DNA of 64,000 nucleotides, from assembly GCF_947492715.1 (NCBI RefSeq), contig NZ_CANLNS010000009.1:1-64000 (forward strand), read 5' to 3'. Shown here piece by piece: positions 26,658-45,685 of this stretch. Under the pieces are notes generated by a model. That model was not told the DNA's origin, made no database searches, and was given only the letters and a program-made list of their open reading frames with translations. The position numbers and the translations under genes are program-made. The DNA is from an uncultured Psychroserpens sp. (GTDB lineage Bacteria > Bacteroidota > Bacteroidia > Flavobacteriales > Flavobacteriaceae). Each line of letters starts with the position of its first letter. The first letter of the stretch is position 1.

Positions 26658-26693
26658 ATAATAAATAGGAAAGTAAGTTTGTTTTTAATACTA

Positions 26694-28215: not shown

Positions 28216-28426
28216 TGTAGTAGGTTTTTGTTTAGTGGCTTCGAATATATGTTAATTCTTTAAAAAAGACCTAAATCATAGATTTTCAGTTGAAATTATC
28301 GGTTGAAATCCTGATTTCATGCTGCTTTTTCTAAAAAAAACAGCAATTTTTCCATTTTTATTCAATAGATAATTTTGCCTAAACCTGCGATAATTCATCT
28401 GTTGTAAATAGAATTTTATGACTTAA

Positions 28427-28459
28427 TTGTTTTACAACGTTGGGCTTTTAGTAGTTTTG
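28427..28459 (+). promoter_or_regulatory. Promoter of the ABC-F gene
   Basis: TTG (28427-28429), 22 bases, TAGTTTTG (28452-28459), 19 bases before the ATG at 28479. Confidence 0.6.
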
Positions 28460-28478
28460 CAGCTTTAAAATTTACATT

Positions 28479-30110
28479 ATGATTTCAGTAGATAATTTGG
28501 CAGTAGAATTTAGTGGACATACACTTTTTAGCGATGTGTCTTTTACCATTAACGAGAATGATAAAATTGCGTTAATGGGAAAAAATGGAGCAGGAAAATC
28601 TACCATGATGAAAATTATTGCTGGTGTTCAAAAAGCAACTCGCGGAAATGTAAGAACACCAAAAGAGGCTATTATTGCCTATTTGCCTCAGCATTTATTA
28701 ACGGAAGATAATACAACTGTTTTTGATGAAGCTTCAAAAGCATTTAGTCATGTGTTTGAGATGCGTGATGAAATGGAAGCCTTAAATAAAGCCTTAGAGA
28801 CAAGAACCGATTATGAGTCTGATGAATACATGAAAATTATTGAGCGTGTGTCTGATTTGGGTGAAAAGTATTATGCTTTAGAAGATGTAAATTATGATGC
28901 CGAAGTTGAAAAAGCACTTAAAGGTTTAGGCTTTAAACAAGCAGATTTTATACGGCAAACCAACGAATTCTCTGGAGGCTGGCGAATGCGAATTGAACTT
29001 GCAAAAATATTACTTCAAAAACCAGATTTGATTTTATTAGATGAGCCAACCAATCATATTGATATTGAATCGGTGATTTGGTTGGAAGATTTTTTGGTGA
29101 ATAAAGCCAATGCCGTCGTCGTGATTTCACACGATAGAGCCTTTATTGATAATATCACTAATAGAACTATTGAAGTGACTATGGGACGTATTTATGATTA
29201 TAAAGCGAAGTATACCCATTACTTGCAATTACGTGAAGATCGTAGAGCGCATCAAATTAAAGCCTACCAAGAACAACAGAAATTTATTGCTGATAACATG
29301 CAATTTATTGAGCGATTTAAAGGCACATATTCGAAAACGAATCAGGTCTCGTCGCGTGAACGTATGCTTGAAAAATTAGAAATTATCGAGATTGATGATA
29401 TTGACACATCAGCTTTAAAATTACGTTTTCCGCCAACGCAACGTTCTGGAGATTATCCCGTAACGGTTAAAGAGGTGTCTAAATCTTATGGTGAACATGT
29501 GGTGTTTAAAGACGCAAACATGTCTATTGCAAGAGGTGAGAAAGTATGTTTTGTAGGACGAAATGGAGAAGGCAAATCGACGATGATTAAAGCCATTTTG
29601 GGAGAAATTGATGTGAATGGAACATGCGCTTTGGGACACAATGTTAAGGTTGGTTATTTTGCCCAAAACCAAGCAGCTTTATTAGATGAAAATTTATCTA
29701 TTTTTCAAACCGTTGATGAGGTTGCGAAGGGCGATGTAAGAACGCAAATCAAAAATATTCTTGGTCGTTTTATGTTTAAAGGCGATGATATTGATAAAAA
29801 AGTAAGTGTACTGTCTGGTGGCGAAAAAACCAGATTGGCAATGGTAAAACTTTTGTTAGAACCAGTGAACTTACTTATTCTTGATGAGCCTACAAATCAC
29901 CTCGATTTAAAATCTAAAGACGTACTTAAGGAAGCACTTCAAAATTTTGATGGTACGTTAATACTAGTTTCTCACGATCGGGATTTTTTACAAGGCCTTT
30001 CTAAAAAGGTATTTGAATTTAAAAATCAACGTGTTATTGAGCATTTTGAAACCATCGATGATTTCTTATCAAGGAATCGTGTTGAGAGTTTGAAAGGTCT
30101 AGATTTGTAG
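28479..30110 (+). CDS. ABC-F family ATP-binding protein
   Basis: A soluble translation-associated ABC-F ATPase of 543 residues with two nucleotide-binding domains and no membrane part. The first has Walker A GKNGAGKST, signature FSGGWRMRIELA and Walker B LILLDEPTNHID. The second has GRNGEGKST, LSGGEKTRLAM and LLILDEPTNHLD. The linker between them (about 240-310) is charged and helical, as expected for the P-site tRNA interaction motif. Such proteins act on stalled or early-elongating ribosomes. No resistance context is present, so a housekeeping role is likely. Confidence 0.93.
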   Translation: MISVDNLAVEFSGHTLFSDVSFTINENDKIALMGKNGAGKSTMMKIIAGVQKATRGNVRTPKEAIIAYLPQHLLTEDNTTVFDEASKAFSHVFEMRDEMEALNKALETRTDYESDEYMKIIERVSDLGEKYYALEDVNYDAEVEKALKGLGFKQADFIRQTNEFSGGWRMRIELAKILLQKPDLILLDEPTNHIDIESVIWLEDFLVNKANAVVVISHDRAFIDNITNRTIEVTMGRIYDYKAKYTHYLQLREDRRAHQIKAYQEQQKFIADNMQFIERFKGTYSKTNQVSSRERMLEKLEIIEIDDIDTSALKLRFPPTQRSGDYPVTVKEVSKSYGEHVVFKDANMSIARGEKVCFVGRNGEGKSTMIKAILGEIDVNGTCALGHNVKVGYFAQNQAALLDENLSIFQTVDEVAKGDVRTQIKNILGRFMFKGDDIDKKVSVLSGGEKTRLAMVKLLLEPVNLLILDEPTNHLDLKSKDVLKEALQNFDGTLILVSHDRDFLQGLSKKVFEFKNQRVIEHFETIDDFLSRNRVESLKGLDL

Positions 30111-30639
30111 GTTCTGATATTTTATTTCTGGAGTTTTTACATAATTAAGTTCAAACTTATATTCATGTTCATTTTGCCTTGATGCACTATTTATTTTAGA
30201 ATGTCTGGTAGACATTTTAAACTAAATACAAAACCAAAAATTCAAGCTAATCTGAGGTGTTAATACATTCATTTTGTCTTGAAACAAAAAGAACCAAAAA
30301 ATCAAGTCAATCTGAGGAAATTCCTACGGAACATTCGCTTTCGGAATTTCGTGCTTAAAGCTTTGCTTTGCATCTTCATTCCTTCCCTCATTATTTCTGC
30401 ATTTCAAGATTCCGACTTTGTCGGAAATTGGGACTTGAATCTTCACTAAGTTTTTCTCAATGATGATTTTTGCTTACTGCTTTGCTTGCGTTAGGGATAG
30501 AGGCATCTGTTGAAGCTCTTTTTTGTTGTTGCATTGAGCAACAAAAAAAGCGACTGCCGAAAGCGCGACCCTTGGGTAACGCCCAAAATAATTGTCTTAT
30601 CAAACAAAGGCATCTATTTTTACCTATTTTTGCAATGTT
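30111..30639. repeat. Gene-free spacer with degenerate repeats and hairpins
   Basis: No credible gene. Two 26-base copies at 30232-30257 and 30292-30317 share AACCAAAAA and TCTGAGG and differ at a few positions. A TCCGAC/GTCGGA hairpin lies at about 30409-30423, within a larger AAGATTC/GAATCTT pair. A block at 30488-30584, starting GCGTTAGGGAT and ending GGGTAACGCCC, has a central hairpin (GTTGC/GCAAC, 30528-30542, flanked by a T-run and an A-run). From general knowledge such blocks recur between genes in Flavobacteriaceae, so this looks like a dispersed palindromic repeat. Frames inside it are low-complexity and not coding. Confidence 0.55.
30625..30632 (+). promoter_or_regulatory. -7 box of the YgiQ-type gene
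   Basis: TATTTTTG, an exact TAnnTTTG, only 7 bases before the ATG at 30640, so the transcript would begin at the start codon. This supports 30640 over the TTG at 30592 as the start. No -33 TTG at normal spacing. Confidence 0.5.
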
Positions 30640-32601
30640 ATGCAAGACGAGTTGAGACTTTCAAGTTGGTTACCTACCACAAATAAAGAGGTTAAAATCC
30701 GCGGATGGGATGCACTAGATGTTATCTTATTTAGTGGTGATGCTTATGTGGATCACCCAACATTTGGTCCTGCCGTTATTGGACGTTTGCTAGAAAGCCT
30801 TGGCTTGCGTGTTGCTATTGTTCCACAACCTAGTGTGACGGATAATCTTCAGGATTTTACAAAACTTGGTGCGCCCAAATTATTTTTTGGGGTCACAGGA
30901 GGGTGTATGGATCCTATGATTAGTAACTATAATGCGAATAAGAAACGTCGTGATAAAGATGCCTATACACCAAATGGTGATATTGGATTTCGTCCAGATT
31001 ATGCCACAACAGTATATTCTAAAATTCTAAAAGAAAAATGGCCTGATGTTCCAGTGTTGCTTGGCGGCATTGAAGCGTCTTTACGTCGTGTCACACATTA
31101 TGATTATTGGAGTGATACCTTAATGCCAACCATTTTAGAAAGTTCTAAAGCCGATATGTTGGTTTATGGAATGGGAGAGCAACCCTTGCGAGAGGTTGTG
31201 CGTTTGCTACAAAAGGGTGTGCCGTTTTCTAGTATTACAACTATTAAGCAAACAGCCGTACTTTTAAATAAAAATGCTAAAATCCCCAAGAATAGTAATT
31301 GGGAAGATGTTGAAATTGCATCGCATGAAGTTTGTTTAAGTGATAAGAAAAAATACGCGGCTAATTTTAAGGTTATAGAACAGGAATCAAATAAATTGGC
31401 TGCGCGACGCATTTTTCAAAATGTGGGCGATAAGACCTTAATGATTAATCCGCCGTATCCAACGATGACCGAAGACGAAATCGATGCGTCTTTTGAGTTG
31501 CCTTATACACGTTTACCACATCCAAAATATAAGAAGCGCGGACCAATTCCTGCGTTTGAAATGATCAAGTTTTCGATTAATATACATCGTGGTTGTTTTG
31601 GTGGTTGTAGTTTTTGCACCATTTCGGCACATCAAGGAAAATTTATAGCCTCCCGAAGTCAGGAATCTGTTTTGCGAGAGGTTGATATTGTTGCCAATAT
31701 GCCTGATTTTAAAGGTTATTTGTCTGATATTGGTGGCCCAAGTGCCAACATGTATAAAATGAAAGGTAAAATACAGTCTATCTGCGACAAGTGCGTGGCG
31801 CCTAGTTGTATTTCTCCTGTGATTTGTAGTAATTTAGATACGTCTCATAAACCGCTAACCGATTTATATCAAGCCGTTGACAAGCATCCTAAAGTTAAGA
31901 AGTCGTTTATAGGTTCTGGAATTCGCCATGATATGTTAGTGCCAGAATTCAACAAAAATGCAGATCCAAAAGAACTTGATGATTATACCGAAGAGGTCAT
32001 GACCAAGCATGTGTCTGGGCGATTAAAGGTCGCACCTGAGCATACCAGTGATCCTGTATTGAAACTCATGAGGAAGCCTTCGTTTAAGTATTTCCATAAG
32101 TTTAAAGAGCGCTTTGATAGGATTAATATCAAGAAAGGTCTGAAGCTGCAACTCATCCCTTATTTTATTTCTAATCATCCTGCTTGTGAAGTGGAAGATA
32201 TGGCCAATCTTGCTGCCGAAACCAAAGATATGGGCTTTCAGTTGGAGCAAGTGCAAGGCTTTACGCCTACGCCTATGACAGTTGCAACTGTTATCTATTA
32301 TAGCGGGTATCATCCTTATACTTTAAAAAAGGTAAATACGCCAAAATCACGTAAGGAAAAAGATGAGCAACACCGTTTTTTCTTTTGGTACAAGGACGAA
32401 AACAAAGCGTGGATTAGAAAGACCTTAAATAAACTGGGTCGCCAAGATTTACTCAATGTACTACTGCCTAAAAAGGACGAAAAATGGCGTAAAAACAAGC
32501 CTACAGGTGAAACTAAAAATACCTTTAATGATGCTGTGCCTTTTAACCAACGGAAAAATAAGGTGAAGTATAAAGGGAAGAAAAAAAGAAGAAGGAAATA
32601 G
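30640..32601 (+). CDS. YgiQ-family radical SAM protein
   Basis: A 653-residue radical SAM enzyme of unknown reaction. An N-terminal domain begins WDALDVILFSGDAYVDHPTFG, the usual YgiQ opening. The [4Fe-4S]-binding CxxxCxxC is in HRGCFGGCSFCTI (Cys319, Cys323, Cys326). Two further cysteine pairs (CDKCVAPSC) follow, and then a DUF3362-type, very basic C-terminus (KYKGKKKRRRK). I start it at the ATG at 30640; a longer reading from TTG 30592 would run through the promoter. Its stop codon directly abuts the restriction island on the other strand. Confidence 0.88.
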   Translation: MQDELRLSSWLPTTNKEVKIRGWDALDVILFSGDAYVDHPTFGPAVIGRLLESLGLRVAIVPQPSVTDNLQDFTKLGAPKLFFGVTGGCMDPMISNYNANKKRRDKDAYTPNGDIGFRPDYATTVYSKILKEKWPDVPVLLGGIEASLRRVTHYDYWSDTLMPTILESSKADMLVYGMGEQPLREVVRLLQKGVPFSSITTIKQTAVLLNKNAKIPKNSNWEDVEIASHEVCLSDKKKYAANFKVIEQESNKLAARRIFQNVGDKTLMINPPYPTMTEDEIDASFELPYTRLPHPKYKKRGPIPAFEMIKFSINIHRGCFGGCSFCTISAHQGKFIASRSQESVLREVDIVANMPDFKGYLSDIGGPSANMYKMKGKIQSICDKCVAPSCISPVICSNLDTSHKPLTDLYQAVDKHPKVKKSFIGSGIRHDMLVPEFNKNADPKELDDYTEEVMTKHVSGRLKVAPEHTSDPVLKLMRKPSFKYFHKFKERFDRINIKKGLKLQLIPYFISNHPACEVEDMANLAAETKDMGFQLEQVQGFTPTPMTVATVIYYSGYHPYTLKKVNTPKSRKEKDEQHRFFFWYKDENKAWIRKTLNKLGRQDLLNVLLPKKDEKWRKNKPTGETKNTFNDAVPFNQRKNKVKYKGKKKRRRK

Positions 32602-34908
32602 TTATTTTTTTACTTTCATCAAATCTGGTAAATTAGTTGTAAATGGTATTGACGATGCCCTTCCAGATTTATAATTATTTAGGTCTTTAAAATTCCAAGA
32701 AAGATTTTCAAATTCTTTATCAGAACATTTTTTTACAGAAATTACTAGGTAGTTTTCTTGTCTAGGATTTGGATAATTCAATCGTTTTAAAGTAGCATTA
32801 TTTGTTACTCTGTATTCAGGTTTTTGTATTGTATAAAGTCTTGAAGAAGAATTATCATTTTCCATATGAAGTAATAAATATTTTGCATTTAAAGTTTTCT
32901 TATTCAATTTCAATGCACCTCTATTGCTATCCATTCTAAAGTTATAGAGAGATTTATCATTAATCCATTTCAAATGATTTTCAGATTTACAATATCCAAC
33001 CAAAACATAAGCTTCATCTGGAATTAGCTTTTTACCATTAACAAATTCAGGAAGAGGCTCATTTAATGGCATTGACTTTCCATCTTTTGTTATTTCATAA
33101 GTTTTTGAAGCAATGTTTTCTCTTTGAGATGATCTATTTAATAAATGATTAATGATTTTGTCAATAAAATCACTCAACTCTTTTGAGCCATTATTAGTTG
33201 AACTTGGTCTTATAGCAAAAGCTCCTAAACCAGGAATTATTTCATGAAACCCTTTTTTTATATATTTATTGTTATTGCCGGGATATAAAATATATGCTCC
33301 TCCAGTTCTTCTTATTGCATCTTTATAAGCGTGCATTTTGAATAGATCTACGTTTTTGTATTCACCTTTTCTTTCAGATTCTTCTTCATCAATTCTTGAT
33401 TCTTCTAATTTTCCTGAATAATTTACCTTGTATTTTGCATCAAAATGAATATGAACAATTAACTCTTCTGCTTCAGCATTTTTTTCTGTAATATCTTTTG
33501 GCCAAAAGGACAAAGTGTAATCTGGATACATATTTTTAGTATAACTACCTTGTTCTTTTGAAGCATGTTTTTTGTTTCCTTTAAATGTTTGATTATAAGA
33601 AAATTTAACATTCAACTTTCTGTTTTCAAAATCACAGATACCACTTAATGCTGTATGTGTTCCCGATTTAATGATAAAATTAAGACCGTTATCAGTTTTT
33701 TCAATTAAGTTCTGATAAAGTTCTCCATTGTGCTCTATATTACTGAGGTTAAATTTGGTTCTGAATAAGTCGTACAGCAAAAAAAACAACCAATATTCAT
33801 ATAATTTGGAAATATCTCTTTTGCCAGCATCATAAACATCGTTTCCGCCTGTCCAAGTGAGTTTAGCCGCTAAGTCAAATTTTAACCAGGATTTTAATAA
33901 TTCTCTATAGCCACTTTTTCTTTGAAGCACAGGACTATTAAAATTTAAACTTGTAGGTCTAGAAATTTGTTTAAAGAAGGAATTATTTAATTGTTGTTCT
34001 AAGGTGTTAGATAAATGTTTTGCTTCTTTGTTTGCTCTTGTTTCATTTTTAAATCTGCTTAAACAGTTTTCACTGAAATGAAGATAAGTTTGTAACGCAT
34101 ATTTAATAAACTGGTTTTCCGCATTATCTATGATTTCAACTTTTTTATTATTGACGATATGTGAAGGTATATTTTGAAGAGGGTTTTTGTACAATGGATG
34201 AGAGTTAGGCACAGGAATTCGATTTCCTCTATTCACTAACTGTTTGATGGTGTTTTTTGTAAATTTTTTTACACTTCTTATATCGGCTAACTCGTCATTA
34301 TCTGTCCAATCAGTTTTTGGATTACTTATTATTTTTTGAATGGCTTCTTCAAATTCTTTATTTCCAATGATGGAATTTATAAAACAAAATTGTTGGTATA
34401 AACTTTCACTCTCTTTATTAAAATCAGTCTCAAAATGTTGTTGTATTGGTGAATTAACCTGTAATAATAATTCAGTGCATTTTTCTGTTATGCTTTCTAG
34501 CATAAACCTATAATTTTCCCTGTAACTTTTATCTAGATTATCTGAGTTAAATTTAGTTGCTAAAACCTCTAAATAAATATATTCTCTGGTTAGATGTTTT
34601 TCTTTATGATGCAGGTTTAGTTTTAGAGTTCCAACATAATAACTTGGGTTAATTCTTCCGGAATGTTTTTCTCTATTAGATTGCGTTATTATACTCTTAT
34701 TATCGCAGCTTAATCTATAGCCTTTTTTATTGAAAGCGTACTCATAACTTTGGCTTTCTAAAATTTGAAAAGGCGCTTCTCCAAATGTATTGGCTTCGAG
34801 TTCTTCAATTTTGTAAAGTTTACTATAACCCTCAGGAAATATGTTTAATTCTAAATCTTTAGAAATATGGTTTAAAGGAATAGATATGTGTTTTACCTCT
34901 GCCATCAA
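32602..34908 (-). CDS. DUF2357 / McrC-like PD-(D/E)XK nuclease subunit
   Basis: A 768-residue protein of the DUF2357 type, which accompanies McrB-like ATPases and is the likely DNA-cleaving subunit. The first ~350 residues are helical and strand-rich with no known motif. The nuclease core follows: YPDYTLSF (Asp463) and, 27 residues on, HIHFDAKYK (Asp490, Lys492), forming a PD-(D/E)XK-like site with Asp in place of Glu. After it comes TGGAYILYPG. The C-terminal ~170 residues (DEAYVLVGYCKSENHLKWI) may be a separate binding domain. It is last in a tight operon, 2 bases after the McrB-like gene, and its stop touches that of ygiQ. Composition is more AT-rich than the flanking genes. Confidence 0.8.
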   Translation of the reverse strand: MMAEVKHISIPLNHISKDLELNIFPEGYSKLYKIEELEANTFGEAPFQILESQSYEYAFNKKGYRLSCDNKSIITQSNREKHSGRINPSYYVGTLKLNLHHKEKHLTREYIYLEVLATKFNSDNLDKSYRENYRFMLESITEKCTELLLQVNSPIQQHFETDFNKESESLYQQFCFINSIIGNKEFEEAIQKIISNPKTDWTDNDELADIRSVKKFTKNTIKQLVNRGNRIPVPNSHPLYKNPLQNIPSHIVNNKKVEIIDNAENQFIKYALQTYLHFSENCLSRFKNETRANKEAKHLSNTLEQQLNNSFFKQISRPTSLNFNSPVLQRKSGYRELLKSWLKFDLAAKLTWTGGNDVYDAGKRDISKLYEYWLFFLLYDLFRTKFNLSNIEHNGELYQNLIEKTDNGLNFIIKSGTHTALSGICDFENRKLNVKFSYNQTFKGNKKHASKEQGSYTKNMYPDYTLSFWPKDITEKNAEAEELIVHIHFDAKYKVNYSGKLEESRIDEEESERKGEYKNVDLFKMHAYKDAIRRTGGAYILYPGNNNKYIKKGFHEIIPGLGAFAIRPSSTNNGSKELSDFIDKIINHLLNRSSQRENIASKTYEITKDGKSMPLNEPLPEFVNGKKLIPDEAYVLVGYCKSENHLKWINDKSLYNFRMDSNRGALKLNKKTLNAKYLLLHMENDNSSSRLYTIQKPEYRVTNNATLKRLNYPNPRQENYLVISVKKCSDKEFENLSWNFKDLNNYKSGRASSIPFTTNLPDLMKVKK

Positions 34909-34910
34909 TT

Positions 34911-37013
34911 TTAAGCTTCTGCATAACTGGCAAATCCATTTTCTACAGCATTATTATACATACGCATTATCTTTTCAAAAGATAATTTGTATTTGATGTT
35001 GTCATCGGTTTCAAAATTTATTTTATCATAATTATTAAAGTAATTATCATCAAATTTATCATCTACTTCAACCAAACAAAACTTAGCTAATGGTTTAAGA
35101 ATACGAGTAAGTTTTGTTCTTGAACCATGAAGTTTTGGTAACATTTTTTGCATAATTGTAATGTCTATTTTGTCATTTTCAGCAGTTAACCCAAACGTTT
35201 CTAGTTTGAAAATTAATTTTGAGATTTCAAAAGCAGTTCTGTAACCAAACTCTGCACCAGATTTTTGAAGCTCTTTGAAAAACTTATGTATCTCTATTTG
35301 TTGGCCCTCTGTCAATTGGTAGTCTTCATTTTTAGTTGCGATAGTTACAAAATCAGAAGCCATATTAGTACCTTTCCCTTCTAAATTTTTTAAGTCAACA
35401 CTTTTTGGCTCCTTTAAGAAATCTGCTATATTTCCTTCTTTTACTCTAAACTCTATAGTGTTTGCCCTATCTAACACTTTAGGGCTAAACATATATGTAG
35501 TCTCATCAATGTTAACAGTACCAACTATAAATAAGTTAGGTGGTAATTTTATGGTTTTAGGAATATCGTTGACTTTATCATGGATTTTGTGTAACGGAAT
35601 TACATTTTTAGATTCCATGGCACTTAAAAAGTCTGCAAAATAGCGCTCTACATGACTTAAATTCATTTCGTCTAGAATTAAAAAATAGGGTCTGGTTTCG
35701 TCAATTTTTGCTCTTAATAATAAATCTAAAGCATCGTTATCTGGCTTTACATATTCATCATTTTTTAGGGCATTTGGATATCCTAAAAGCGGTTCTCTAT
35801 TTGTCCAATCTGCACCTACAGGTATTAACGCATATTGGTTTTCATTTTCGCAAATCCACTTTGCAAAGGCTTCTGCCAATTTTGTTTTACCAGAACCAGA
35901 GAGACCACTTAATAACACAAACGGTTTTGTTGCTAAAGAGGCAATGTATCTGGTGATTTGTTTAGTATTATAATTGAGACCTGTAATTTTACATGCTTCT
36001 TGAAAACTATTAGCATCAAATTTTAGCGCTTCTAAATTATCGAAAAATAAACTATCAGTTGATTTAATCTTCTCAATAAATTCGTTCAGAAATCTTAAGT
36101 AATTATTCTTTCCTAAAACTGCTTCTGGAGCACCTCTACTTGTAGCTTGGCTATATCTTATCCATTCTTGGTTATTTGAATTTAATACCAAATCCCCAAT
36201 TTTATTCAATGATTTTTCAAGATTCCCATAGTCAATTGTAAATAGACTATTATGAAAATATGCTTTATTCCAGAAATTTAAGACTACTTCAGTTACTAAT
36301 CCATCATATGATTTTTTGTAATTTGGTTCTTGATTTATCCAATTAATAAATGACTGTTTGATATTAAATTTTGGAGTTTTAAAGCTAGCATTACTAAATT
36401 TTTTTGGGAGTTGTTCTATAAACTTTTTCGTAGATTCTTTATCTGAGAATTTAGAATAAAAATTTTCAGATGCATTTTCATAGAGTTGATTTTGACTATT
36501 TAAATTAGCTAATTCTTTTATTTCAGAAGGTAATAGGTTGTTTAAATTTATATAATCTAATAAACTTAAACCAATAGAGGTTTTAAGCTCATACAATCCT
36601 GCTTGATTAGGAGTTCCTTTGGTTAAACCGCCTAAATTATTTATAAATTGTGGAAAGTAATAAAGATCAGCTTTAGTAATGGGGGAGTTTAAACCTATTA
36701 CCTTTATATTTACTTCTTTTCTCTCTTTTATCGTATTTTCAATAAGTCCTATAGCGTGTATACCATTTTTATAGTTATTATATTTTGGCAAATTATTTTG
36801 CTTAAAATACTTGCTTTTGTTAGAATAATCTCCTCCTATGTGAAGAGCTATTATATCTCCTGTCTTTGCTAAATCAAGATTATTGGGAATGTTATACAAA
36901 GTGTGTTTTTGTAAAATTCCATCGGATAGTTTTTTTAATAAATTGTAAAAGTTTAACTCATTAACATTTTTTGGACAACTTATTTTAGCATAGAAGAAAC
37001 TGGTTTTATTCAT
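34911..37013 (-). CDS. McrB-like AAA+ ATPase with putative modified-base reader domain
   Basis: A 700-residue motor subunit. The AAA+ module (about 355-640) has Walker A LSGLSGSGKTKLAEAF (Lys376), Walker B YFLILDEMNLSHVERYFADF, and a sensor-1 region LFIVGTVNIDETTYMFSPKVLDRA. The MNxxD stretch that gives McrB its GTP preference is here VNIDE, so the nucleotide is uncertain. The N-terminal ~130 residues (KTGDIIALHIGG, then GIHAIGLIENT) resemble an EVE/PUA-like base-reading fold in pattern. The gene sits 2 bases from both neighbours in the operon. An McrBC-type translocating nuclease with the DUF2357 protein is the most likely role. Confidence 0.82.
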   Translation of the reverse strand: MNKTSFFYAKISCPKNVNELNFYNLLKKLSDGILQKHTLYNIPNNLDLAKTGDIIALHIGGDYSNKSKYFKQNNLPKYNNYKNGIHAIGLIENTIKERKEVNIKVIGLNSPITKADLYYFPQFINNLGGLTKGTPNQAGLYELKTSIGLSLLDYINLNNLLPSEIKELANLNSQNQLYENASENFYSKFSDKESTKKFIEQLPKKFSNASFKTPKFNIKQSFINWINQEPNYKKSYDGLVTEVVLNFWNKAYFHNSLFTIDYGNLEKSLNKIGDLVLNSNNQEWIRYSQATSRGAPEAVLGKNNYLRFLNEFIEKIKSTDSLFFDNLEALKFDANSFQEACKITGLNYNTKQITRYIASLATKPFVLLSGLSGSGKTKLAEAFAKWICENENQYALIPVGADWTNREPLLGYPNALKNDEYVKPDNDALDLLLRAKIDETRPYFLILDEMNLSHVERYFADFLSAMESKNVIPLHKIHDKVNDIPKTIKLPPNLFIVGTVNIDETTYMFSPKVLDRANTIEFRVKEGNIADFLKEPKSVDLKNLEGKGTNMASDFVTIATKNEDYQLTEGQQIEIHKFFKELQKSGAEFGYRTAFEISKLIFKLETFGLTAENDKIDITIMQKMLPKLHGSRTKLTRILKPLAKFCLVEVDDKFDDNYFNNYDKINFETDDNIKYKLSFEKIMRMYNNAVENGFASYAEA

Positions 37014-37015
37014 TT

Positions 37016-38203
37016 TTATAAATATTTTCTATCGACGGGTAGTTCATTATTCCAAAATTCTGCATATGAATCAGTTTTCATTATGTCAATTTTGTAATTA
37101 TTTTCATCTTCTTTAATAATAATTACGCTGTCATATCCTAAATCATTTAGCATTTCAATTGTTGCAATTTCCCCCTCTTTAAGCTGCAATGCTTTTCTTA
37201 GTAACCATTCGCCAAGACCTTTATTGGATTTGGTCATCAATCCTTTGCCTTTGTTTATTTTCTTTCCACCAATTTCAATCTTTGATGTTTGGCACATACT
37301 TGCTTTGAAAGTTTTTCTATTAGGAAGATGTAAATTGAAATGATTTTTGTCACTCTTGATTGAAGGGAAAAAATTTGGAAATTTATGGTGTATTTTAGCA
37401 GGAACTGGAATGTAAATTTCGTTTTTATTTCTCTTTCTACCTTTGGCGTGCCATTGATTTAAACCACTTTTTTCGTATATGTACTTTACTCCGTTCTTTA
37501 TTCCATAAAGAGGTAGAATAATATAATCTTTTCCCTTAATAAGAGAATCAGTTATTTCTTCAGGAAATAGATCTAGTAATAGGCTGTAAGGGTCTTCAAT
37601 TATGTCAATCTTTAATTTGTAAGCGTGCTCAGGAATTATAAATTTTCTATAAAGAGTACTTTTGGAATAGTTATAAGTATAAAAATTCTTGCCATCATAA
37701 AATTGTAAGCTAGACTTATTTTCTTTTACAGATTCAATATTTCGAATATCAATATGATTGTAATCTGTTTCAAAGAGAATTAGTTCTTTTTCCCTTCTGG
37801 CTACAATGTGGTAGATTGAAGATTTTATATCATATAGTCTTTTGGCTAAATTAATTCTATCATTTCTATATTTTCCTAACTTTATTGCAAGTTCCTTTCC
37901 TTTGTAATTCTTTAAACGCTCAGATAGTTTATTAAATTCTGCAATTTTTTCAGTTTTAGTATTGGTTTTTGATATAAAAGTTTTTAGACCAATTCCAACT
38001 GAATTATAATCAGCATCAAATGCAACGTCAGATCTGGATAGGTTATTTGCAACAAAACTTCTGCAAAATATGTTTTCGGCTACTCTGTAATTTATTAACG
38101 GTATTGAATTATCACTAAAAAGACCAGAAAGCTTAGAAACTGCAGAAAGTAATTTTAAATATTCTCCGTTATTTTCAATATCTATTTCTGCAAATGATTT
38201 CAT
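37016..38203 (-). CDS. Putative restriction subunit with B3-like C-terminal DNA-binding domain
   Basis: A 395-residue protein. Residues about 225-385 match, from memory, the C-terminal domain of NgoFVII-type restriction enzymes, related to the B3/EcoRII-N DNA-binding fold. The segments are SGLNQWHAKGRKRNKNEIYI, VPAKIHHKFPNFFP, a LPNRKTFKASMCQ strand pair and LGEWLLRKALQLKEGEIATIEMLNDLGYDSV. The N-terminal half has LSRSDVAFDADYNSVGIGLK, where Asp63/Asp65 and Lys74 could form a degenerate nuclease site, but no phospholipase D motif. It overlaps the methyltransferase stop by four bases (ATGA). It probably supplies sequence recognition for the system; whether it cuts DNA itself is open. Confidence 0.65.
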   Translation of the reverse strand: MKSFAEIDIENNGEYLKLLSAVSKLSGLFSDNSIPLINYRVAENIFCRSFVANNLSRSDVAFDADYNSVGIGLKTFISKTNTKTEKIAEFNKLSERLKNYKGKELAIKLGKYRNDRINLAKRLYDIKSSIYHIVARREKELILFETDYNHIDIRNIESVKENKSSLQFYDGKNFYTYNYSKSTLYRKFIIPEHAYKLKIDIIEDPYSLLLDLFPEEITDSLIKGKDYIILPLYGIKNGVKYIYEKSGLNQWHAKGRKRNKNEIYIPVPAKIHHKFPNFFPSIKSDKNHFNLHLPNRKTFKASMCQTSKIEIGGKKINKGKGLMTKSNKGLGEWLLRKALQLKEGEIATIEMLNDLGYDSVIIIKEDENNYKIDIMKTDSYAEFWNNELPVDRKYL

Positions 38204-39420
38204 ACAATTTTTATTATCTCTTTAGCAATTCTTTCTATAACTGTTGTTGTTACAGAGTTTCCAGCTTGCATGTAAAGTTTACTGTTTGCAAGATTTGGTA
38301 GAATATAATTTTCCGGATAACCTTGGAAAGAGAAACACTCTCTTGGAGTTAGTTTCCGGATACCATAATTGTCTTTTATTAGCGGTACGTTATGACCTCC
38401 TGTTCCCATGTTTGCAGTTAATGTAGGACAAACATTACTCTTATTTTCTCTCACATAAACTCTCCTCCATTGATAAACCGTATCTTTTGAGGTCATAGTT
38501 TTCTCTAATTCAGGGTAATATTGGTGAGTTTTTGGATAATAATATTTTTCTTCTTGTTTACCTTTTTCCAGAATATCATGAATTGTTTTAGTGAGCTCGA
38601 TTTCTTCCGGAAATTTAAATTTAGTATGTTTTTTAACTTGCTTAGGGTCAAATGCTACAATGAATATACGTTCTCTGTTCTGTGGTATATTGGCGTGAGT
38701 CATAGAATTTAATACTTCAGAATAAACTTTGTATTTTAATTTTTTCTCTAAAATTTCAACAATAGTTTTAAATGTTTTCCCTTTATCATGTGAAACTAAA
38801 TTTTTCACATTCTCAAGAAAAACTACTTTAGGTCTATGCTTTTCTATTATGTTTTCAACATCAAAAAACAATGTTCCTCTAGTATCAGCAAAACCTTTTC
38901 TGTAGCCTGCAATTGAAAAAGCTTGACATGGAAATCCAGCACATAAAACATCAAACTTTTTTGGTATAAAACTTTTAGTCCTTTCTTTGGTGATATCACC
39001 GAATGGAATTTCGCCAAAATTTTCTCGATAAGTTTTTTTTGCCGCATTGTCCCATTCACTGGTGTAAACACATTTTCCGCCAACATTTTGTAATGCTAAC
39101 CTAAAACCACCGATACCAGCAAATAAATCTATAAATTTAAATGAATAATTTTCAGGTGTTGGAAATGGCACATTTTTCACTTCAAACAATAACTGTTGCA
39201 GAGCCTCTTCTTTTTCTATAGGAGAGTTCTCGTCTAATTTATATTGTAGAAAGTTTTTGAAAGCTTTTATAGCCTCTTTTTTGTAATGTTTTGAAACTCC
39301 ATTGTCTAAATTATGTAAATAGTGAGTTATAAGTGCTTGTCCTTCGGGTTCAACTAGTCTTATTTTATAGTTTTTACCTTCAAATTCTTGAATGCTTACG
39401 CTCTGTTTTTCCTTAATCAA
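38200..39420 (-). CDS. DNA (cytosine-5-)-methyltransferase
   Basis: Transfers a methyl group from SAM to C5 of cytosine at a specific site. In the 406 residues the motifs are complete. Motif I is IDLFAGIGGFRLAL (about 97-110), and motif IV is AGFPCQAFSIAG with catalytic Cys165. Motif VI is ENVKNL, motif VIII NIPQNRERIFI, and motif X QAGNSVTTTVIERIA. The target-recognition region between VIII and IX has RRVYVRENKSNVCPTLTANM. An ~90-residue N-terminal extension precedes the catalytic domain. It is first of the tight four-gene operon and has its own -7 box, so protective methylation can precede restriction. The recognition site cannot be read from sequence. Confidence 0.95.
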   Translation of the reverse strand: MIKEKQSVSIQEFEGKNYKIRLVEPEGQALITHYLHNLDNGVSKHYKKEAIKAFKNFLQYKLDENSPIEKEEALQQLLFEVKNVPFPTPENYSFKFIDLFAGIGGFRLALQNVGGKCVYTSEWDNAAKKTYRENFGEIPFGDITKERTKSFIPKKFDVLCAGFPCQAFSIAGYRKGFADTRGTLFFDVENIIEKHRPKVVFLENVKNLVSHDKGKTFKTIVEILEKKLKYKVYSEVLNSMTHANIPQNRERIFIVAFDPKQVKKHTKFKFPEEIELTKTIHDILEKGKQEEKYYYPKTHQYYPELEKTMTSKDTVYQWRRVYVRENKSNVCPTLTANMGTGGHNVPLIKDNYGIRKLTPRECFSFQGYPENYILPNLANSKLYMQAGNSVTTTVIERIAKEIIKIV

Positions 39421-39442
39421 AATCCAAAAAATGTATATTAAA

Positions 39443-39450
39443 CAAATGTA
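39443..39450 (-). promoter_or_regulatory. -7 box of the methyltransferase gene
   Basis: Minus-strand TACATTTG, an exact TAnnTTTG, 22 bases before the methyltransferase ATG, in the 55-base gap after the small upstream gene. No -33 TTG is visible. Confidence 0.45.
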
Positions 39451-39475
39451 GTATTTTTTTAAAACACATTATATT

Positions 39476-40009
39476 TTATTTATTAACTGCGACTGTATCG
39501 ATATGTTTAAGATGCTTAAAGCCAATGAAGCTCATATTGTTTACAGTAGAAGATTTTTCAATATGTGTTCTTTCTAAGTTTTCACGAACGACGTCTTTTG
39601 TTGCTAAACCACAAATTGTGAAAGTAATATGATCTTTTTTAATCACAAAAAACACAGGTCTTTTTATATTGTCAATGTTTATTAAAGGCAGAGAACCGAA
39701 TTCAAATACATGAACATCTACTAAATCTCCATTTAAGTTAATTTTTGGTTGAAAATCTTTTAAGTTGATGGTAGTAAAATCAACTATGGGAAGATTTAAA
39801 TGTTTTTGAATAGAAATTAAGCCACCAACATTCATCATTGTTTTCTCAAAAAAAGCTTGTCCTTCATATCTGTCTCTTAATTGATTAAGGTTATCTAACC
39901 CTAAATGTTTCATGACAGATTCCCTAATCAAAATCTCATCGTTTCTTGTAAATCTTATTTGAGGGTAAGTTCTTAAGAACTCACCAATATATTTTAAAAA
40001 TAATTTCAT
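39476..40009 (-). CDS. Unrecognised protein at the head of the restriction island
   Basis: A 177-residue soluble protein on the same strand as the restriction genes, 55 bases upstream of the methyltransferase. The N-terminal third is helical. The rest alternates strands, with DVHVFEFGSLPLINIDNI, RPVFFVIKKDHITFTICGLATKDVV and a closing SFIGFKHLKHI. I do not recognise it. The strand pattern loosely recalls small nuclease-fold proteins, but no D...ExK set is visible. It has no helix-turn-helix like a controller protein. It may be part of the system, for example a regulator or accessory subunit, or an older neighbour. Confidence 0.55.
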   Translation of the reverse strand: MKLFLKYIGEFLRTYPQIRFTRNDEILIRESVMKHLGLDNLNQLRDRYEGQAFFEKTMMNVGGLISIQKHLNLPIVDFTTINLKDFQPKINLNGDLVDVHVFEFGSLPLINIDNIKRPVFFVIKKDHITFTICGLATKDVVRENLERTHIEKSSTVNNMSFIGFKHLKHIDTVAVNK

Positions 40010-40042
40010 TCTTCTTCTTTAATTTCTAGAAAAACAAATCTA

Positions 40043-40075
40043 CAAAAATATAGAGCTTAATTAATATTATCTCAA
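40043..40075 (-). promoter_or_regulatory. Promoter upstream of the restriction island
   Basis: On the minus strand TTG (40073-40075), 22 bases, TATTTTTG (40043-40050). A second exact -7 match, TAGATTTG, overlaps the downstream side at 40035-40042. Either would give a 20-30-base leader to the ATG at 40009. Confidence 0.5.
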
Positions 40076-40153
40076 CCTATTATTTCCGAACGAGATTACA
40101 TAGTTTAAATAAGTAGTTAATAAGTGTTTTGGAACTTGTAAGAAAAATATTAC

Positions 40154-43012
40154 TTAATGCGCCTCCAACCAATTATCTCCAATATCCATATCGACTTCTA
40201 GAGGAACGTCTAATTTGTAAGCGCTTTCCATTTCGGTTTTAATAAGTGTTTTAAGCGATTCTAACTCAGGTTTATAGGCGTCAAATACGAGTTCATCATG
40301 TACCTGAAGCAGCATTTTCGATTTGTAATCTCCTGCTCTAAGTTTCTCATGAATATTAATCATCGCTATTTTAATAATATCGGCTGCACTTCCTTGAATC
40401 GGAGCGTTTACGGCATTACGCTCTGCTGCACCTCTAACCACTGCATTACGTGAGTTGATATCTTTTAAATAACGACGACGACCTAAAACCGTTTGTACAT
40501 AACCGTTATCCCTTGCAAAATCAACCTGCTCGCTCATATAAGCACGTAATTTTGGATAGGTTTCGTAATAGGTGTCAATGAGTTCTTTAGATTCAGAACG
40601 CGAGAGATTCGTTTGATTGCTCAATCCAAAAGCAGACACACCATAGATAATTCCGAAATTCACGGTTTTAGCATTACTACGCTGTTCTCTGGTCACTTCG
40701 GAAAGCGGAACATTAAATACTTTTGAAGCGGTTGAGGCATGAATATCTTCGCCTTGTTTAAAGGCTTCAATCATCGTTTCTTCTTTGCTAAGCGCTGCGA
40801 TAATACGCAGTTCTATCTGAGAGTAATCGGCTGCAAGTAAGGTGTAATCCTCATTTCTAGGAATAAAGGCCTTTCGCACTTGTCGTCCGCGTTCAGTACG
40901 AATTGGAATGTTTTGCAAATTCGGATTGTTACTACTTAGACGTCCTGTAGCGGCAACAGTTTGCATATAATCGGTGTGCACTCTGCCTGTAGACGCATCA
41001 ACCTGTAATGGTAAAGCATCGACATAAGTGCTTTTTAATTTTGATAAGCCTCTAAAGTCTAGAATATTTTGAATAATCTCATGATCTTTCGCTAGGTAAC
41101 TTAATACATCTTCAGACGTAGAATATTGTCCAGTTTTTGTCTTTTTAGGTTTGTCTACCAATTTCATTTTTTCAAATAAAATCACACCTAATTGTTTTGG
41201 TGATGCAATATTGAATTCTTCACCTGCGGCCTCATAAATTTTCTTTTCGAGATTAGCAATATCTGTGTTGAGTTGTTCAGACAGGGAGTTCAAGAATTCT
41301 TTATCTAGGTTAATGCCTTCCAATTCCATGGTTGCCAAAACTCGAACTAGAGGCAACTCAATGTCATCAAATAATGTTTTGGTATTGGCTTCGCCCAATT
41401 CTTTTTCAAAATGCTCTTTAAGCTGTAGGGTTATGTCGGCATCTTCAACGGCGTATTCCGTTTGCTTTTCTAAAGGAACGTCGCGCATTGATAGTTGGTT
41501 TTTTCCTTTTTTTCCCAGTAACTCTGTAATAGATATAGGCGTATAATTAAGATAAGTTTCAGCCAATACATCCATATTATGTCGCATGTCTGGATTGATG
41601 AGGTAATGCGCTAACATCGTATCAAAGAGTTTGCCTTTAACATCAACATCATATTTGGCTAAAACTTTAATGTCATATTTTAAATTTTGCCCAATTTTTT
41701 GAATAGCTTCATTTTCAAAAAACGGACGTAAGATTTCTATGAGTTCTTGTGCTTCGTTTTTATCTTCCGGAAAAGGGATGTAAAAGCCCTTTCCAACTTC
41801 CCATGAAAATGCAATGCCAACGAGCTCTGCAGTTAATGGGTTAAGACCAGTTGTTTCGGTATCAAAGCATACAGAGGTCTGGTTCAGTAAATTTTTAACA
41901 AACAGCTTTGTTGCCATACCAGGAGCAATACTTTGATAAAAATGTGCAGTGGTTGCTGATGTTTTTCTTGTGTATTCTGAAACCGCTTCGGTGCTGTTAG
42001 TATCATCTCCTCCAAATAAAGAAAATTGCCCTGCTCCAGCATTAGCAGAGGTTTTAGGCTTTGGTGTTGCTTTAGACTTCTCAACTGCGCTCGAAGTGAC
42101 AGAGTTAGGTTTAGTTGACGTTTCTTCTTCCGTAGAAAATGTTTTTAGGAAATTATCAGTTAACCTTCTAAATTCTAAATTCTGAAATATCTCTTTTACT
42201 TTTTCGATATCTGGATGGTCCAGTTCAAAATCCTTAGCATTGAATTCTACTGGAACGTCGAGCATAATGGTTGCTAGCTTCTTTGATAATAAACCCAATT
42301 CACCATTAGCTTCAACTTTTTCTTTCATTTTACCTTTGAGCTGATCTGTATTAGCGAGCAAGCCTTCCATACTACCAAACTGATTGATAAACTTCTTAGC
42401 CGTTTTTTCACCAACACCAGGAAGTCCTGGGATATTGTCACTAGCATCTCCCATCATGCCTAAAAAGTCAATCACTTGCATAGGATCTGTCACTTCAAAT
42501 TTTTTCTGCACTTCAGGAATGCCCCAAGTTTCATAACCGCCTCCAAAAACAGGTCTGTACATAAAAATGTTCTCGGTTACTAACTGTGCAAAATCCTTAT
42601 CTGGCGTCACCATATACGTTTTATAACCTTCTTTTTCAGCCTGTCTTGATAGGGTTCCAATAACATCATCTGCTTCGTAGCCTTCTTTCACCATGATTGG
42701 AATATGCATGGCTTTAAGAATCTCGTAGATATATGGAACTGCTGTTTTAATGCCTTCTGGTGTTTCATCACGATTGGCTTTATAGGCCTCGTACATTTCT
42801 ATACGGTCTGCACTTCCTCCTTTGTCAAAGCAAACAGCTAGGTGATCAGGTCGTTCACGTTTAATCACATCCAATAAGGAATTCATAAAACCCATTATGG
42901 CCGAGGTGTCTTCACCTTTTGAGTTAATTCTTGGATTTTTTATGAAAGCGTAATACCCACGAAAAATTAGGGCATAAGCATCAACTAAAAAAAGACGTTT
43001 CTGATCTGACAT
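40154..43012 (-). CDS. polA: DNA polymerase I
   Basis: Repair and Okazaki-fragment polymerase, 952 residues, with all three domains. The N-terminal 5'-3' exonuclease/flap domain (1-290) has LVDAYALIFRGYYAF and GVGEKTAKKFI. A short Ser/Thr/Lys linker (about 295-350) follows. The 3'-5' exonuclease has an intact CFDTETTGL (DxE) motif. The polymerase domain has motif A AADYSQIELRI, motif B RSNAKTVNFGIIYG and motif C QVHDELVF. Proofreading residues are present, unlike in some family members. The ATG at 43012 is preceded by a 265-base divergent region shared with the isoaspartyl peptidase gene. Confidence 0.96.
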   Translation of the reverse strand: MSDQKRLFLVDAYALIFRGYYAFIKNPRINSKGEDTSAIMGFMNSLLDVIKRERPDHLAVCFDKGGSADRIEMYEAYKANRDETPEGIKTAVPYIYEILKAMHIPIMVKEGYEADDVIGTLSRQAEKEGYKTYMVTPDKDFAQLVTENIFMYRPVFGGGYETWGIPEVQKKFEVTDPMQVIDFLGMMGDASDNIPGLPGVGEKTAKKFINQFGSMEGLLANTDQLKGKMKEKVEANGELGLLSKKLATIMLDVPVEFNAKDFELDHPDIEKVKEIFQNLEFRRLTDNFLKTFSTEEETSTKPNSVTSSAVEKSKATPKPKTSANAGAGQFSLFGGDDTNSTEAVSEYTRKTSATTAHFYQSIAPGMATKLFVKNLLNQTSVCFDTETTGLNPLTAELVGIAFSWEVGKGFYIPFPEDKNEAQELIEILRPFFENEAIQKIGQNLKYDIKVLAKYDVDVKGKLFDTMLAHYLINPDMRHNMDVLAETYLNYTPISITELLGKKGKNQLSMRDVPLEKQTEYAVEDADITLQLKEHFEKELGEANTKTLFDDIELPLVRVLATMELEGINLDKEFLNSLSEQLNTDIANLEKKIYEAAGEEFNIASPKQLGVILFEKMKLVDKPKKTKTGQYSTSEDVLSYLAKDHEIIQNILDFRGLSKLKSTYVDALPLQVDASTGRVHTDYMQTVAATGRLSSNNPNLQNIPIRTERGRQVRKAFIPRNEDYTLLAADYSQIELRIIAALSKEETMIEAFKQGEDIHASTASKVFNVPLSEVTREQRSNAKTVNFGIIYGVSAFGLSNQTNLSRSESKELIDTYYETYPKLRAYMSEQVDFARDNGYVQTVLGRRRYLKDINSRNAVVRGAAERNAVNAPIQGSAADIIKIAMINIHEKLRAGDYKSKMLLQVHDELVFDAYKPELESLKTLIKTEMESAYKLDVPLEVDMDIGDNWLEAH

Positions 43013-43277
43013 GTTATATCATATTTTATTTAAGTAAACTTCGTAAAACGCTCTTTTTTCATTTCTGCCTCAAAATAAAAAAGAAAAGTAGCTATGGCTA
43101 TGTTTAATTTTTATTTTTTCACATATTCTAAAAAAATCATCATTTTACGTATAAGTTGACCTAAACAAAAAATGATATTGAGCTTTTTTTGAAGTTTATA
43201 AAGCTACAAAAACTTATGCGTTTATATGGAACAAATTAAACTACAATTTGTAATTTTCCGCAGTAAAAAATATTACA

Positions 43278-44207
43278 ATGAAAAATTTCTCAATAGCCAT
43301 TCATGGAGGCGCAGGAACATTAGTAAAAGGACTAATGACTCAAGAATTGGAGTTGCAGTATAAAGAAGCATTACAATTGGCTTTAAACAAAGGATACACT
43401 GTTTTAAATGATGGTGGCAATGCCATTGATGCGGTTGAAATCGCTGTAAAGTCATTAGAAGATTCACCATTGTTTAATGCTGGAAAAGGTTCGGTTTTTA
43501 CCGCAGAAGGAACGCATGAAATGGATGCGAGTATCATGGAAGGAAAAACCTTAAACGCTGGAGCTGTGTCTTTGGTAACTGGTATTAAAAACCCCGTGTC
43601 CTTGGCACGTGATGTTATGGATAAAAGCTACCATGTGTTTTTAGCAGGTGAAGGTGCTATGGCTTTTGCGAAGCAGCATAACTACGACCTTGAAGAGGCT
43701 AGCTATTTTTATGATGAGGTACGTTACCAACAATGGCAAGGGATAAAAGATAGTGAGAACTTTCAACTAGATCATAGTGTAAAAAAGGATGGAAAGTTTG
43801 GAACGGTTGGAGCCGTAGCTTGCGATCAAGATGGAAATATCGCAGCAGCAACATCTACAGGAGGCATGACCAATAAAAAATGGGGACGCGTTGGTGATAG
43901 CCCAATGATTGGTGCTGGTAATTATGCTAACAATAAAACCTGCGCAGTATCATGTACTGGAAGTGGCGAGTTCTTTATTCGAGGTGTTGTGGCTTATGAT
44001 GTATCATGCTTAATGGAACACAAAGGATTGAGTTTGCAAGAAGCATCGGAAGAAGTTATAAATAAACGTGTTCTTGATATTAAAGGTGATGGAGGCTTAA
44101 TTGCTGTAGATGCCGAAGGAAACATTGCTATGCCTTTTAATACTGAAGGGATGTATCGTGCCTGTAAGACATCAAAAGGCGACGAACTTATTGCAATTTA
44201 TAAGTAG
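43278..44207 (+). CDS. Isoaspartyl peptidase / L-asparaginase (Ntn hydrolase)
   Basis: A 309-residue plant-type asparaginase that matures by self-cleavage before the nucleophile Thr176, in FGTVGAVACD. The family hydrolyses beta-aspartyl dipeptides. The N-terminal AIHGGAGT and GGNAIDAVEIAV, and the later GRVGDSPMIGAGNYAN and CTGSGEFFIR, are family hallmarks. There is no signal peptide, so it acts in the cytoplasm. Cyanophycinase and cyanophycin synthetase lie 1.5-2.5 kb away. Hydrolysis of beta-Asp-Arg released by cyanophycinase is a natural role, though general isoaspartate clearance is also possible. It overlaps the convergent gene by 20 bases. Confidence 0.92.
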   Translation: MKNFSIAIHGGAGTLVKGLMTQELELQYKEALQLALNKGYTVLNDGGNAIDAVEIAVKSLEDSPLFNAGKGSVFTAEGTHEMDASIMEGKTLNAGAVSLVTGIKNPVSLARDVMDKSYHVFLAGEGAMAFAKQHNYDLEEASYFYDEVRYQQWQGIKDSENFQLDHSVKKDGKFGTVGAVACDQDGNIAAATSTGGMTNKKWGRVGDSPMIGAGNYANNKTCAVSCTGSGEFFIRGVVAYDVSCLMEHKGLSLQEASEEVINKRVLDIKGDGGLIAVDAEGNIAMPFNTEGMYRACKTSKGDELIAIYK

Positions 44208-45644: not shown

Positions 45645-45685
45645 AGGTTTAAAGCTAAAAGAATTTGGTGGCTATGTCAAAAAAA

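Follow-up and report, generated by a model that had tools for sequence, protein, structure and literature searches.

Introduction

Restriction systems in which a C5-cytosine methylase is linked to an McrBC-type motor and nuclease are already known, and their published accounts, as far as the accessible sections of these papers go, provide the closest points of reference for the locus described here. PcaRCI from Pectobacterium carotovorum is reported to restrict unmethylated DNA (PMC8989522), and in LlaJI the McrB-like R1 protein binds a specific site and has an N-terminal part unlike that of McrB (PMC1459862). DUF3578 is the specificity module of E. coli McrB (PMC7641849), and in NgoAVII the methylase acts on GCSGC and cleavage occurs at GCCGC (PMC4267653). 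The locus in question lies in a 64,000-nucleotide stretch of DNA from an uncultured Psychroserpens sp. (Flavobacteriaceae; contig NZ_CANLNS010000009.1, positions 1 to 64,000), the whole of which is called the window. Five open reading frames (ORFs), all on the minus strand, occupy the space between presumed polA and convergent YgiQ-like genes and encode a head protein (hd), a C5 methylase (M), a B3-domain protein (R), an McrB-like ATPase and an McrC-like nuclease. This block is predicted to be a composite restriction operon, that is, a type II restriction-modification (RM) system joined to an McrBC module and not one five-subunit enzyme, because the B3-domain protein is a predicted endonuclease in its own right and is mostly found without McrBC among its 44 relatives. 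The composite architecture and the exchange of its front as a cassette are, taken together, highly probable.

The methylase and its cognate endonuclease

The methylase belongs to the DNA_methylase family by Pfam and is encoded as a separate C5 methylase, and beside it lies a gene for a protein with a predicted nuclease fold, which is the arrangement of a type II RM system. By its predicted fold and its context, the 395-aa B3 protein would be the endonuclease itself, the cognate R of the methylase. Its AlphaFold2 (AF2) model, made from 30 sequences, reached a predicted local distance difference test (pLDDT) score of 88.9 and a predicted template-modelling (pTM) score of 0.57. The N-terminal part (about residues 1-195) aligns structurally to 3ndh (Z 8.4), HinP1I (7.5), SwaI (6.4) and EcoRV (6.2), and residues 218-376 align to the B3 domain of R.NgoAVII (4rd5) with Z 13.9, a root-mean-square deviation of 2.4 and 21% identity over 131 aligned residues. 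Residues E43, D63 and K74 are invariant across the 30 aligned rows and are the putative catalytic residues; an insertion of about 11 residues in the B3 domain (about residues 307-317) is absent from the other rows. The original prediction had assigned to this protein a B3 domain and the role of a separate recognition subunit. The B3 domain, which Pfam does not see, is borne out by the predicted structure; the role of recognition subunit for the motor was rejected, given the protein's own predicted N-terminal nuclease domain, which had been missed, and its occurrence mostly with the methylase alone.

A scan of named genomes, in which records close to the window genome may be missing, yielded 44 relatives of R from many phyla. 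A C5-methylase match was present in the locus of 43 of them (L024 is the exception), mostly overlapping or adjoining the R gene, and M and R were the only genes recurring in more than 5 of the 44 loci, i.e. the pair comes without further subunits. At least 5 kb of downstream sequence was covered for 35 of the 44. When the available flanks were searched with the window proteins, none of the 44 loci held McrB or McrC of the window family, profiles of close McrBC relatives gave one weak McrB match (L042), and an McrBC-type gene of any branch was not detected in the available flanks of 40. In the remaining four, Pfam and a search with the genes of L043 itself located, no more than about 5.5 kb away and in no fixed order, McrBC-type genes that belong to other branches: an McrC-like gene with PF10117 in L004 (11308-12093), AAA_5 in L015 (2-1462), AAA_5 with a weak PDDEXK_7 match in L042 (13312-16481), and AAA_5 with PF10117 in L043 (4517-8052), where the McrB-like protein carries a canonical MNTADRS and an N-terminus 27% like the reader of L215, with the PF10117 McrC-like gene next to it. 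R genes appear broken in L042 (6966-10591, two separated ORFs) and L224 (a match with an internal stop). Within the family, R is present in 4 of 269 genomes including that of the window, and McrBC of the window family was not found in the covered sequence of the other three, which for L229 extends only 1.5 kb downstream. Because M recurs with R while McrBC is mostly not detected, methylase and R would in most places constitute a two-gene type II system, and the suggestion that the proteins of the block form one combined enzyme had to be given up.

The target site is perhaps of the GCNGC/GCSGC kind, a guess made because the B3 domain of R matches that of NgoAVII and because a Bsp6I-like endonuclease adjoins a pair of hd and methylase genes in L094; the specificity of Bsp6I used here is the one we presume.

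The McrB-McrC module and its reader

By Pfam the McrB-like protein is recognized only weakly (AAA_5, 5.6e-4, below the family cut-off). It contains Walker A and Walker B motifs and the McrB-type sensor as NID-E, the NxD variant of the Nx(xx)D signature, and an NxD sensor followed by E occurs in 28 of 29 aligned McrB rows, these being all that cover the position, with the 29th incomplete there. The NID-E sensor places the window pair, as judged from its sequence, in the published NxD branch of McrBC. McrC combines DUF2357 (3.7e-34) with a PD-(D/E)XK domain (PDDEXK_7, 1.5e-23), and its catalytic residues are intact, P462-D463 and D490-A491-K492 being retained by 95% or more of 27 aligned sequences including the window. 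Of the profile matches anticipated in the original prediction, DNA_methylase (2.4e-93) and DUF2357 were recovered, whereas AAA_5 stayed below its cut-off and B3 was invisible to Pfam.

Type IV McrBC has no cognate methylase; here a C5 methylase lies in the same operon. The E. coli-type 5-methylcytosine (5mC) reader PF12102, which we take to be the same as DUF3578, gave no match in the window McrB up to E 1. Its absence is consistent with the argument, put forward when the locus was first noticed, that an McrBC attacking methylated DNA would be lethal beside its own methylase. The profile of the window reader found nothing among solved structures, and no relatives of McrB or of its reader were found in viral contigs. 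That the McrB reader is itself a B3 domain found no support, since hhalign against the B3 profile of the endonuclease returned 0.3% (shallow profiles). An apparently broken McrC, split into two ORFs, occurs in L086 (6365-8656).

Linkage of McrBC to C5 methylases

McrB relatives scoring above 200 bits were collected from three overlapping sets (395 genomes of the phylum, 397 of the family and 128 of another order), and L210 and L215 were added from the polA site independently of the McrB searches. Among the resulting 30 McrB loci, a C5 methylase lies co-directionally upstream in 12 (the window, L079, L085, L086, L088, L089, L090, L128, L130, L135, L137 and L215) and divergently in 3 (L080-L082), none was found in 14, and one (L140) is cut by a contig end; absence here means no C5-profile match at 1e-5 within about 6.5 kb, with other methylase classes outside the profile set. 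Methylase, R, McrB and McrC stand in one co-directional row in the window, L079 and L090, all from Bacteroidota, with gaps of 2-12 nt or short overlaps throughout, and L090 has an extra 178-aa gene between its R relative and McrB. The recurrence of this row in L079 and L090 speaks for a grouping of the four genes beyond chance. Another endonuclease takes the place between methylase and McrB in L085 (HNH) and in L215 (MutH/Sau3AI-like). In six loci (L086, L088, L089, L128, L135 and L137), among them L088 with a reader kin to that of the window, the methylase directly precedes McrB-McrC without an intervening gene, so that McrBC would be the natural restriction partner of the methylase there. 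The pairing of a C5 methylase with McrB and a DUF2357 McrC in the manner of LlaJI, as originally proposed, was right. Of the co-occurrence that such a proposal implies, one part failed, in that the methylase-R pair usually comes without McrBC, and the other stood, in that this McrBC family is often linked to a C5 methylase (12/30).

In its methylase, R and reader, L090 is kin to the window and L079; on the motor tree it sits on a branch separate from these two. To account for the 3 rows labelled "McrBC-linked", the R and M trees need 3 changes, which is no improvement on shuffles, and one gain followed by losses is therefore indistinguishable from several gains.

The class of the reader goes with this linkage. 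None of the 12 linked McrBs had PF12102 above its cut-off, against 8 of the 14 unlinked and 1 of the 3 divergent ones (linked against unlinked, Fisher p = 0.0022, loci treated as independent), with Pfam E limits of 1 for the window and 0.05 or 0.01 for the other loci. Left out of the count were L140, whose reader is truncated to 35 aa where the contig stops, L141 and L114, two fragments from a single genome, and L123, with 366 aa at the beginning of a contig; classing was confined to matches of at least 200 bits. The upstream side of L138 ends at a contig end, and without this locus the unlinked count becomes 8/13 (p 0.0016). In a version that takes kinship into account, four sister pairs all point in the expected direction, one of which (L088/L084) is weakly supported (86/63); in L137/L132, L128/L131 and L085/L139 the methylase-linked member lacks PF12102 and its near-sister has it. 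Reader classes formed by single-linkage BLAST, with L210 left out, gave p of about 6e-6, and because this criterion is loose the PF12102 count is relied on instead.

Some further arrangements were observed in these loci. Vsr-like repair nucleases are encoded upstream of or near the methylase in L085, L088, L089 and L137 and also near L081, L082 and L090, so that the operons of L088 and L089 read Vsr-methylase-McrB-McrC; no Vsr-like match was obtained in positions 26000-46000 of the window or in L079. In L080 and L082, the divergent C5 methylase beside McrBC is followed by genes for an HATPase_c_3 protein and more large proteins, and this may be a further composite defence system. An arrangement like methylase-linked McrBC, but with an adenine methylase, is seen on a Chlorohelix plasmid (L150, 1-7674), where an N-6 methylase, an EVE-annotated McrB-like protein and a DUF2357 protein stand in a row.

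Probable exchange of the front at the polA-YgiQ site

The gap between polA and YgiQ is a variable defence site in the genus (window 32601-40154, L203-L222). Of the same-genus genomes with polA, 22 with that of the window, a few have an empty gap, and several have C5 methylases or McrBC in it. The empty gaps, such as those of G852 and G849 with 9 and 11 nt between the two genes, agree with the earlier view of the block as acquired defence genes. At this site L210 carries McrBC with a PF12102 reader and no methylase match, and in another genus (L126) McrBC without a methylase match also follows polA.

The locus L215, of the same genus, likewise lies directly after polA. By blastn it matches the window with 81.8% identity over 3404 nt, a stretch (window 36005 to 32607) that extends from McrB residue 337, just before the P-loop, to the end of McrC, with protein identities of 79% in the AAA part and 84% in McrC. 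Between 36005 and the polA stop codon there is no blastn match, and at the protein level only the methylase core is alike (34%). In front, L215 has a helix-turn-helix (HTH) gene, a C5 methylase different from that of the window, an endonuclease of 461 aa and, in McrB, another reader of about 400 residues, with 366 nt between endonuclease and McrB. This endonuclease is MutH/Sau3AI-like (PF02976, 4.7e-40; PADLOC REase_II, 1.3e-104), where the connection of the Pfam family, MutH, with Sau3AI is presumed. In the same gap of another same-genus genome (L203), HTH (76%), methylase (89%) and endonuclease (83.5%) genes like those of L215 are present without McrBC. The same pattern recurs in L137/L132, L128/L131 and L085/L139, which share 77-82% nucleotide identity over 3.2-3.4 kb behind unlike fronts, the similarity starting 8-39 residues before the P-loop; L128 and L131 additionally share 212 nt upstream of the stretch that differs. 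Linked and unlinked McrBs are intermingled on the motor tree. These comparisons support the view that methylase, endonuclease and McrB reader, up to about residue 336, are exchanged as a single cassette while the motor-nuclease backbone behind them stays constant.

What the McrBC module may do

The likeliest reading, given a probability of about 0.5, takes McrBC as a second arm of restriction governed by the same methylase. The C5 methylase would mark a short site, and the PD-(D/E)XK-B3 endonuclease would cut the same site when it is unmarked. The AAA+ ring of McrB would load where its N-terminal reader binds and translocate, and McrC would cut, the McrBC module attacking unmarked DNA such that one mark guards against two cutters. 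This reading is put forward because of the methylase-McrB-McrC operons, the absence of the 5mC reader and the precedents of PcaRCI and LlaJI; that McrBC cuts unmodified sites is plausible in view of what is reported in the accessible text on PcaRCI (PMC8989522). More tentatively, and at somewhat less than even odds, the backbone could accept front cassettes of unrelated specificity, each made up of methylase, type II endonuclease and a matching reader, by recombination just before the P-loop, so that a methyl-cutting type IV enzyme would become methyl-respecting in one step and one methylase would protect the host from two nucleases of different mechanism.

Several observations weigh against such a second arm. 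Across the three composites the identity is 71-86% in the target recognition domain (TRD) of the methylase, 53-67% in the B3 domain of R and 52-62% in the motor, and only 24-42% in the McrB reader, and the L088 reader is as close to the L079 reader (35%) as that of the window is, though the L088 methylase TRD shares only 16-22%. Divergent readers beside alike methylase TRDs argue that the reader does not track methylase specificity. L002, which the M and R trees place as sister to L079, has the M-R pair without McrBC, PF12102 occurs beside a divergent C5 methylase in L082, and the reader of L135 partly resembles an unlinked one. In the operons without an intervening gene, the genes upstream of the methylase are identified only in part; co-exchange of neighbours by one recombination is by itself no proof of function; and GCNGC sites show no depletion in the window (103 found against 84.8 expected). 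Finally, a weak profile signal suggests that the window reader may be EVE-like, a fold mostly linked to modified bases and described, in the accessible part of the source, as a modified-base sensor (PMC7641849).

This last point leads to the main rival, which is rather unlikely, namely a complementary pair in which the type II arm cuts unmodified DNA and an EVE-like McrBC senses foreign cytosine modification, such as that of hydroxymethylated phage DNA, and not the mark of its own methylase; phages escaping the endonuclease through modification would then be caught by McrBC. The readers of the window, L079, L090 and L088 together matched the EVE profile by hhalign with 74% probability (P 2.8e-5), and Pfam EVE was matched by one of four reader fragments at 0.0025 and by full-length L088 at 0.015, below the curated cut-off. 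Fast divergence of the reader beside a conserved methylase would also fit the fast-evolving EVE domains and the RM-plus-EVE logic set out in the accessible text (PMC7641849). Against it, the EVE assignment is profile-based and comes from 4 sequences, the window reader itself has no Pfam match, and in L088, where a methylase stands with a reader belonging to this family, the only adjoining nuclease to be complemented is a Vsr-like gene.

It is improbable that two unrelated defence systems are stacked at a hotspot, their tight spacing incidental and the reader merely ignoring the mark of the methylase. The polA-YgiQ gap does carry different systems among same-genus genomes, the M-R pair and McrBC are each found alone, 4 of the 44 M-R relatives have McrBC-type genes from other branches nearby in no fixed order, and the endonuclease and McrB of L215 are separated by those 366 nt. 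Incidental stacking accounts poorly for gaps of 2-12 nt or short overlaps in three window-like composites, for C5-methylase linkage in 12 of 30 McrBs and for a reader class that goes with this linkage. Least probable by far is a single multisubunit enzyme in which the B3 protein gives recognition to the McrB motor and the DUF2357 nuclease, as we presume BsuMI to work, since the operon packing with its 2-nt gaps and the need of R.NgoAVII, the nearest solved B3 relative, for a separate ATPase (PMC4267653, accessible text) are set against a B3 protein with its own predicted nuclease domain, an McrB with its own N-terminal reader region, the methylase as the only further gene recurring in more than 5 of 44 R loci, and nearly the same backbone behind a MutH/Sau3AI-like endonuclease in L215.

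The locus suggests a route by which McrBC could pass between type IV logic, in which methylated DNA is cut, and RM logic, in which it is spared. A single crossover that introduced methylase and reader at the same time would avoid a lethal intermediate. From the reader and the preceding gene it would be predictable which McrBC relatives in databases are RM enzymes and not type IV. The window and L215 form a natural pair with a constant backbone and different cassettes, on which the McrB region that determines the target can be probed directly.

Layout of the locus and the head protein

The features are collected in Table 1. To the left lies what we take to be a YgiQ-like radical SAM gene (30592..32601, plus strand), convergent with the block, whose stop codon abuts that of McrC; to the right, at the edge of the variable site, lies presumably the gene for DNA polymerase I, polA (40154..43012, minus strand). 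The ORFs confirm five genes on one strand with a 4-nt overlap (methylase/R) and two 2-nt gaps (R-McrB and McrB-McrC), as had been stated at the outset, and 55 nt separate hd from the methylase. The AT-richness ascribed to the block also holds, with 27-30% GC in 2-kb windows lying wholly within it against 31-39% in the remaining ones.

Table 1. Coordinates of the features of the composite locus in the window
Feature	Coordinates	Strand	Basis or remark
hd, 177 aa	39476..40009	-	head protein; accompanies C5-methylase RM systems
C5-cytosine methyltransferase (type II M), 406 aa	38200..39420	-	PF00145 2.4e-93; PADLOC MTase_II 9.4e-134
Predicted type II restriction endonuclease (R), 395 aa	37016..38203	-	PADLOC REase_II PDLC03479 2.2e-159, residues 1-385
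R residues 1-200, predicted PD-(D/E)XK nuclease domain	37604..38203	-	AF2 model and fold comparison
R residues 218-378, predicted NgoAVII-type B3 DNA-recognition domain	37070..37552	-	structure match to 4rd5
McrB-like protein (reader and AAA+ motor), NxD branch, 700 aa	34911..37013	-	homologue searches and motif alignment
Reader half of McrB (residues 1-336), within the exchangeable front; residues 1 to ~165 possibly EVE/PUA-like	36006..37013	-	hhalign; blastn against L215
McrB AAA+ motor, residues 337-700	34911..36005	-	GLSGSGKT, LILDEMN, NID-E
McrC-like nuclease, 768 aa, C-terminal extension at about residues 600-768	32602..34908	-	DUF2357 and PDDEXK_7
McrC PD-(D/E)XK catalytic domain, residues 368-546	33271..33807	-	PF04411 1.5e-23

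The head protein hd had no Pfam match up to E 1, no PADLOC or NCBIfam match up to E 0.1 and no homologue of solved structure at E below 0.5. Its homologues adjoin a C5 methylase in L094, L097 and a Mucilaginibacter plasmid (L149) and lie one gene away from it in L095; weak matches of 20 bits were obtained in L090, between endonuclease and McrB, and in L096, with no methylase match nearby. hd thus repeatedly accompanies RM systems that have a C5 methylase but unlike endonucleases, either Bsp6I-like or of the NgoFVII PLD-B3 type with a Z1 ATPase, the latter in L149 (NZ_CP155082.1, 5971-10560), where it precedes an M-R-Z1 operon of NgoAVII/CglI type. It may be an undescribed RM accessory. A two-sequence AF2 model (pLDDT 67.5) matched many nuclease entries at Z 4-5 (best 5.2, below the yardstick of the tool itself and not significant), a weak hint that hd possibly has a PD-(D/E)XK-like fold; hhalign of hd against the nuclease domain of the window R gave 0.2%.

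Comparison with known systems

Neither a type II pair sharing an operon with methylase-linked McrBC nor an exchange of such cassettes was found described in the open-access literature, including the accessible sections of PMC11090510, PMC8989522, PMC1459862, PMC11779793, PMC7641849 and PMC4267653, with REBASE outside this coverage. As in LlaJI and PcaRCI, methylase, motor and McrC-like nuclease are encoded in one operon of the window, and the reader lacks an E. coli-type 5mC domain. PcaRCI resembles the window in its Dcm-homologous methylase, McrB-like AAA+ protein and DUF2357/PD-(D/E)XK protein, in an McrB similarity limited to the C-terminal motor and in an McrC-like subunit with large extensions; unlike the window, it is described, in the accessible text, with neither a type II endonuclease nor an hd gene, and the two are likened by description, not by sequence (PMC8989522). 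LlaJI similarly has methylases, the McrB-like R1 and the PD-(D/E)XK protein R2 (accessible text of PMC1459862), but the N-terminal domain of H. pylori LlaJI.R1 (6c5d) is found among B3 folds, whereas the B3 domain of the window sits in a separate endonuclease. The NxD branch of McrBC shares the NxD sensor, and linkage to methyltransferases is stated for many of its members and left for a later paper; however, the accessible part of that account describes neither type II endonucleases in these operons nor an exchange of methylase plus reader (PMC11090510).

In the NgoAVII/CglI systems, as in the window, a C5 methylase is followed by an R protein with a B3 domain (accessible text of PMC4267653), but the nuclease domain of the window R is predicted to be of the PD-(D/E)XK and not the PLD (HxK) type. 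Up to E 1 no PF09565 or PLD match was obtained in it, whereas L149, a true member of that group, scores 2.1e-29 with PF09565. Further, no Z1/SF2 ATPase partner is encoded, McrB and McrC coming next instead. Type II RM of the MutH/Sau3AI type, with a methylase alike only in its core and an endonuclease of another family, takes in L215 the very place that the methylase-R pair holds in the window, in front of nearly the same McrBC.

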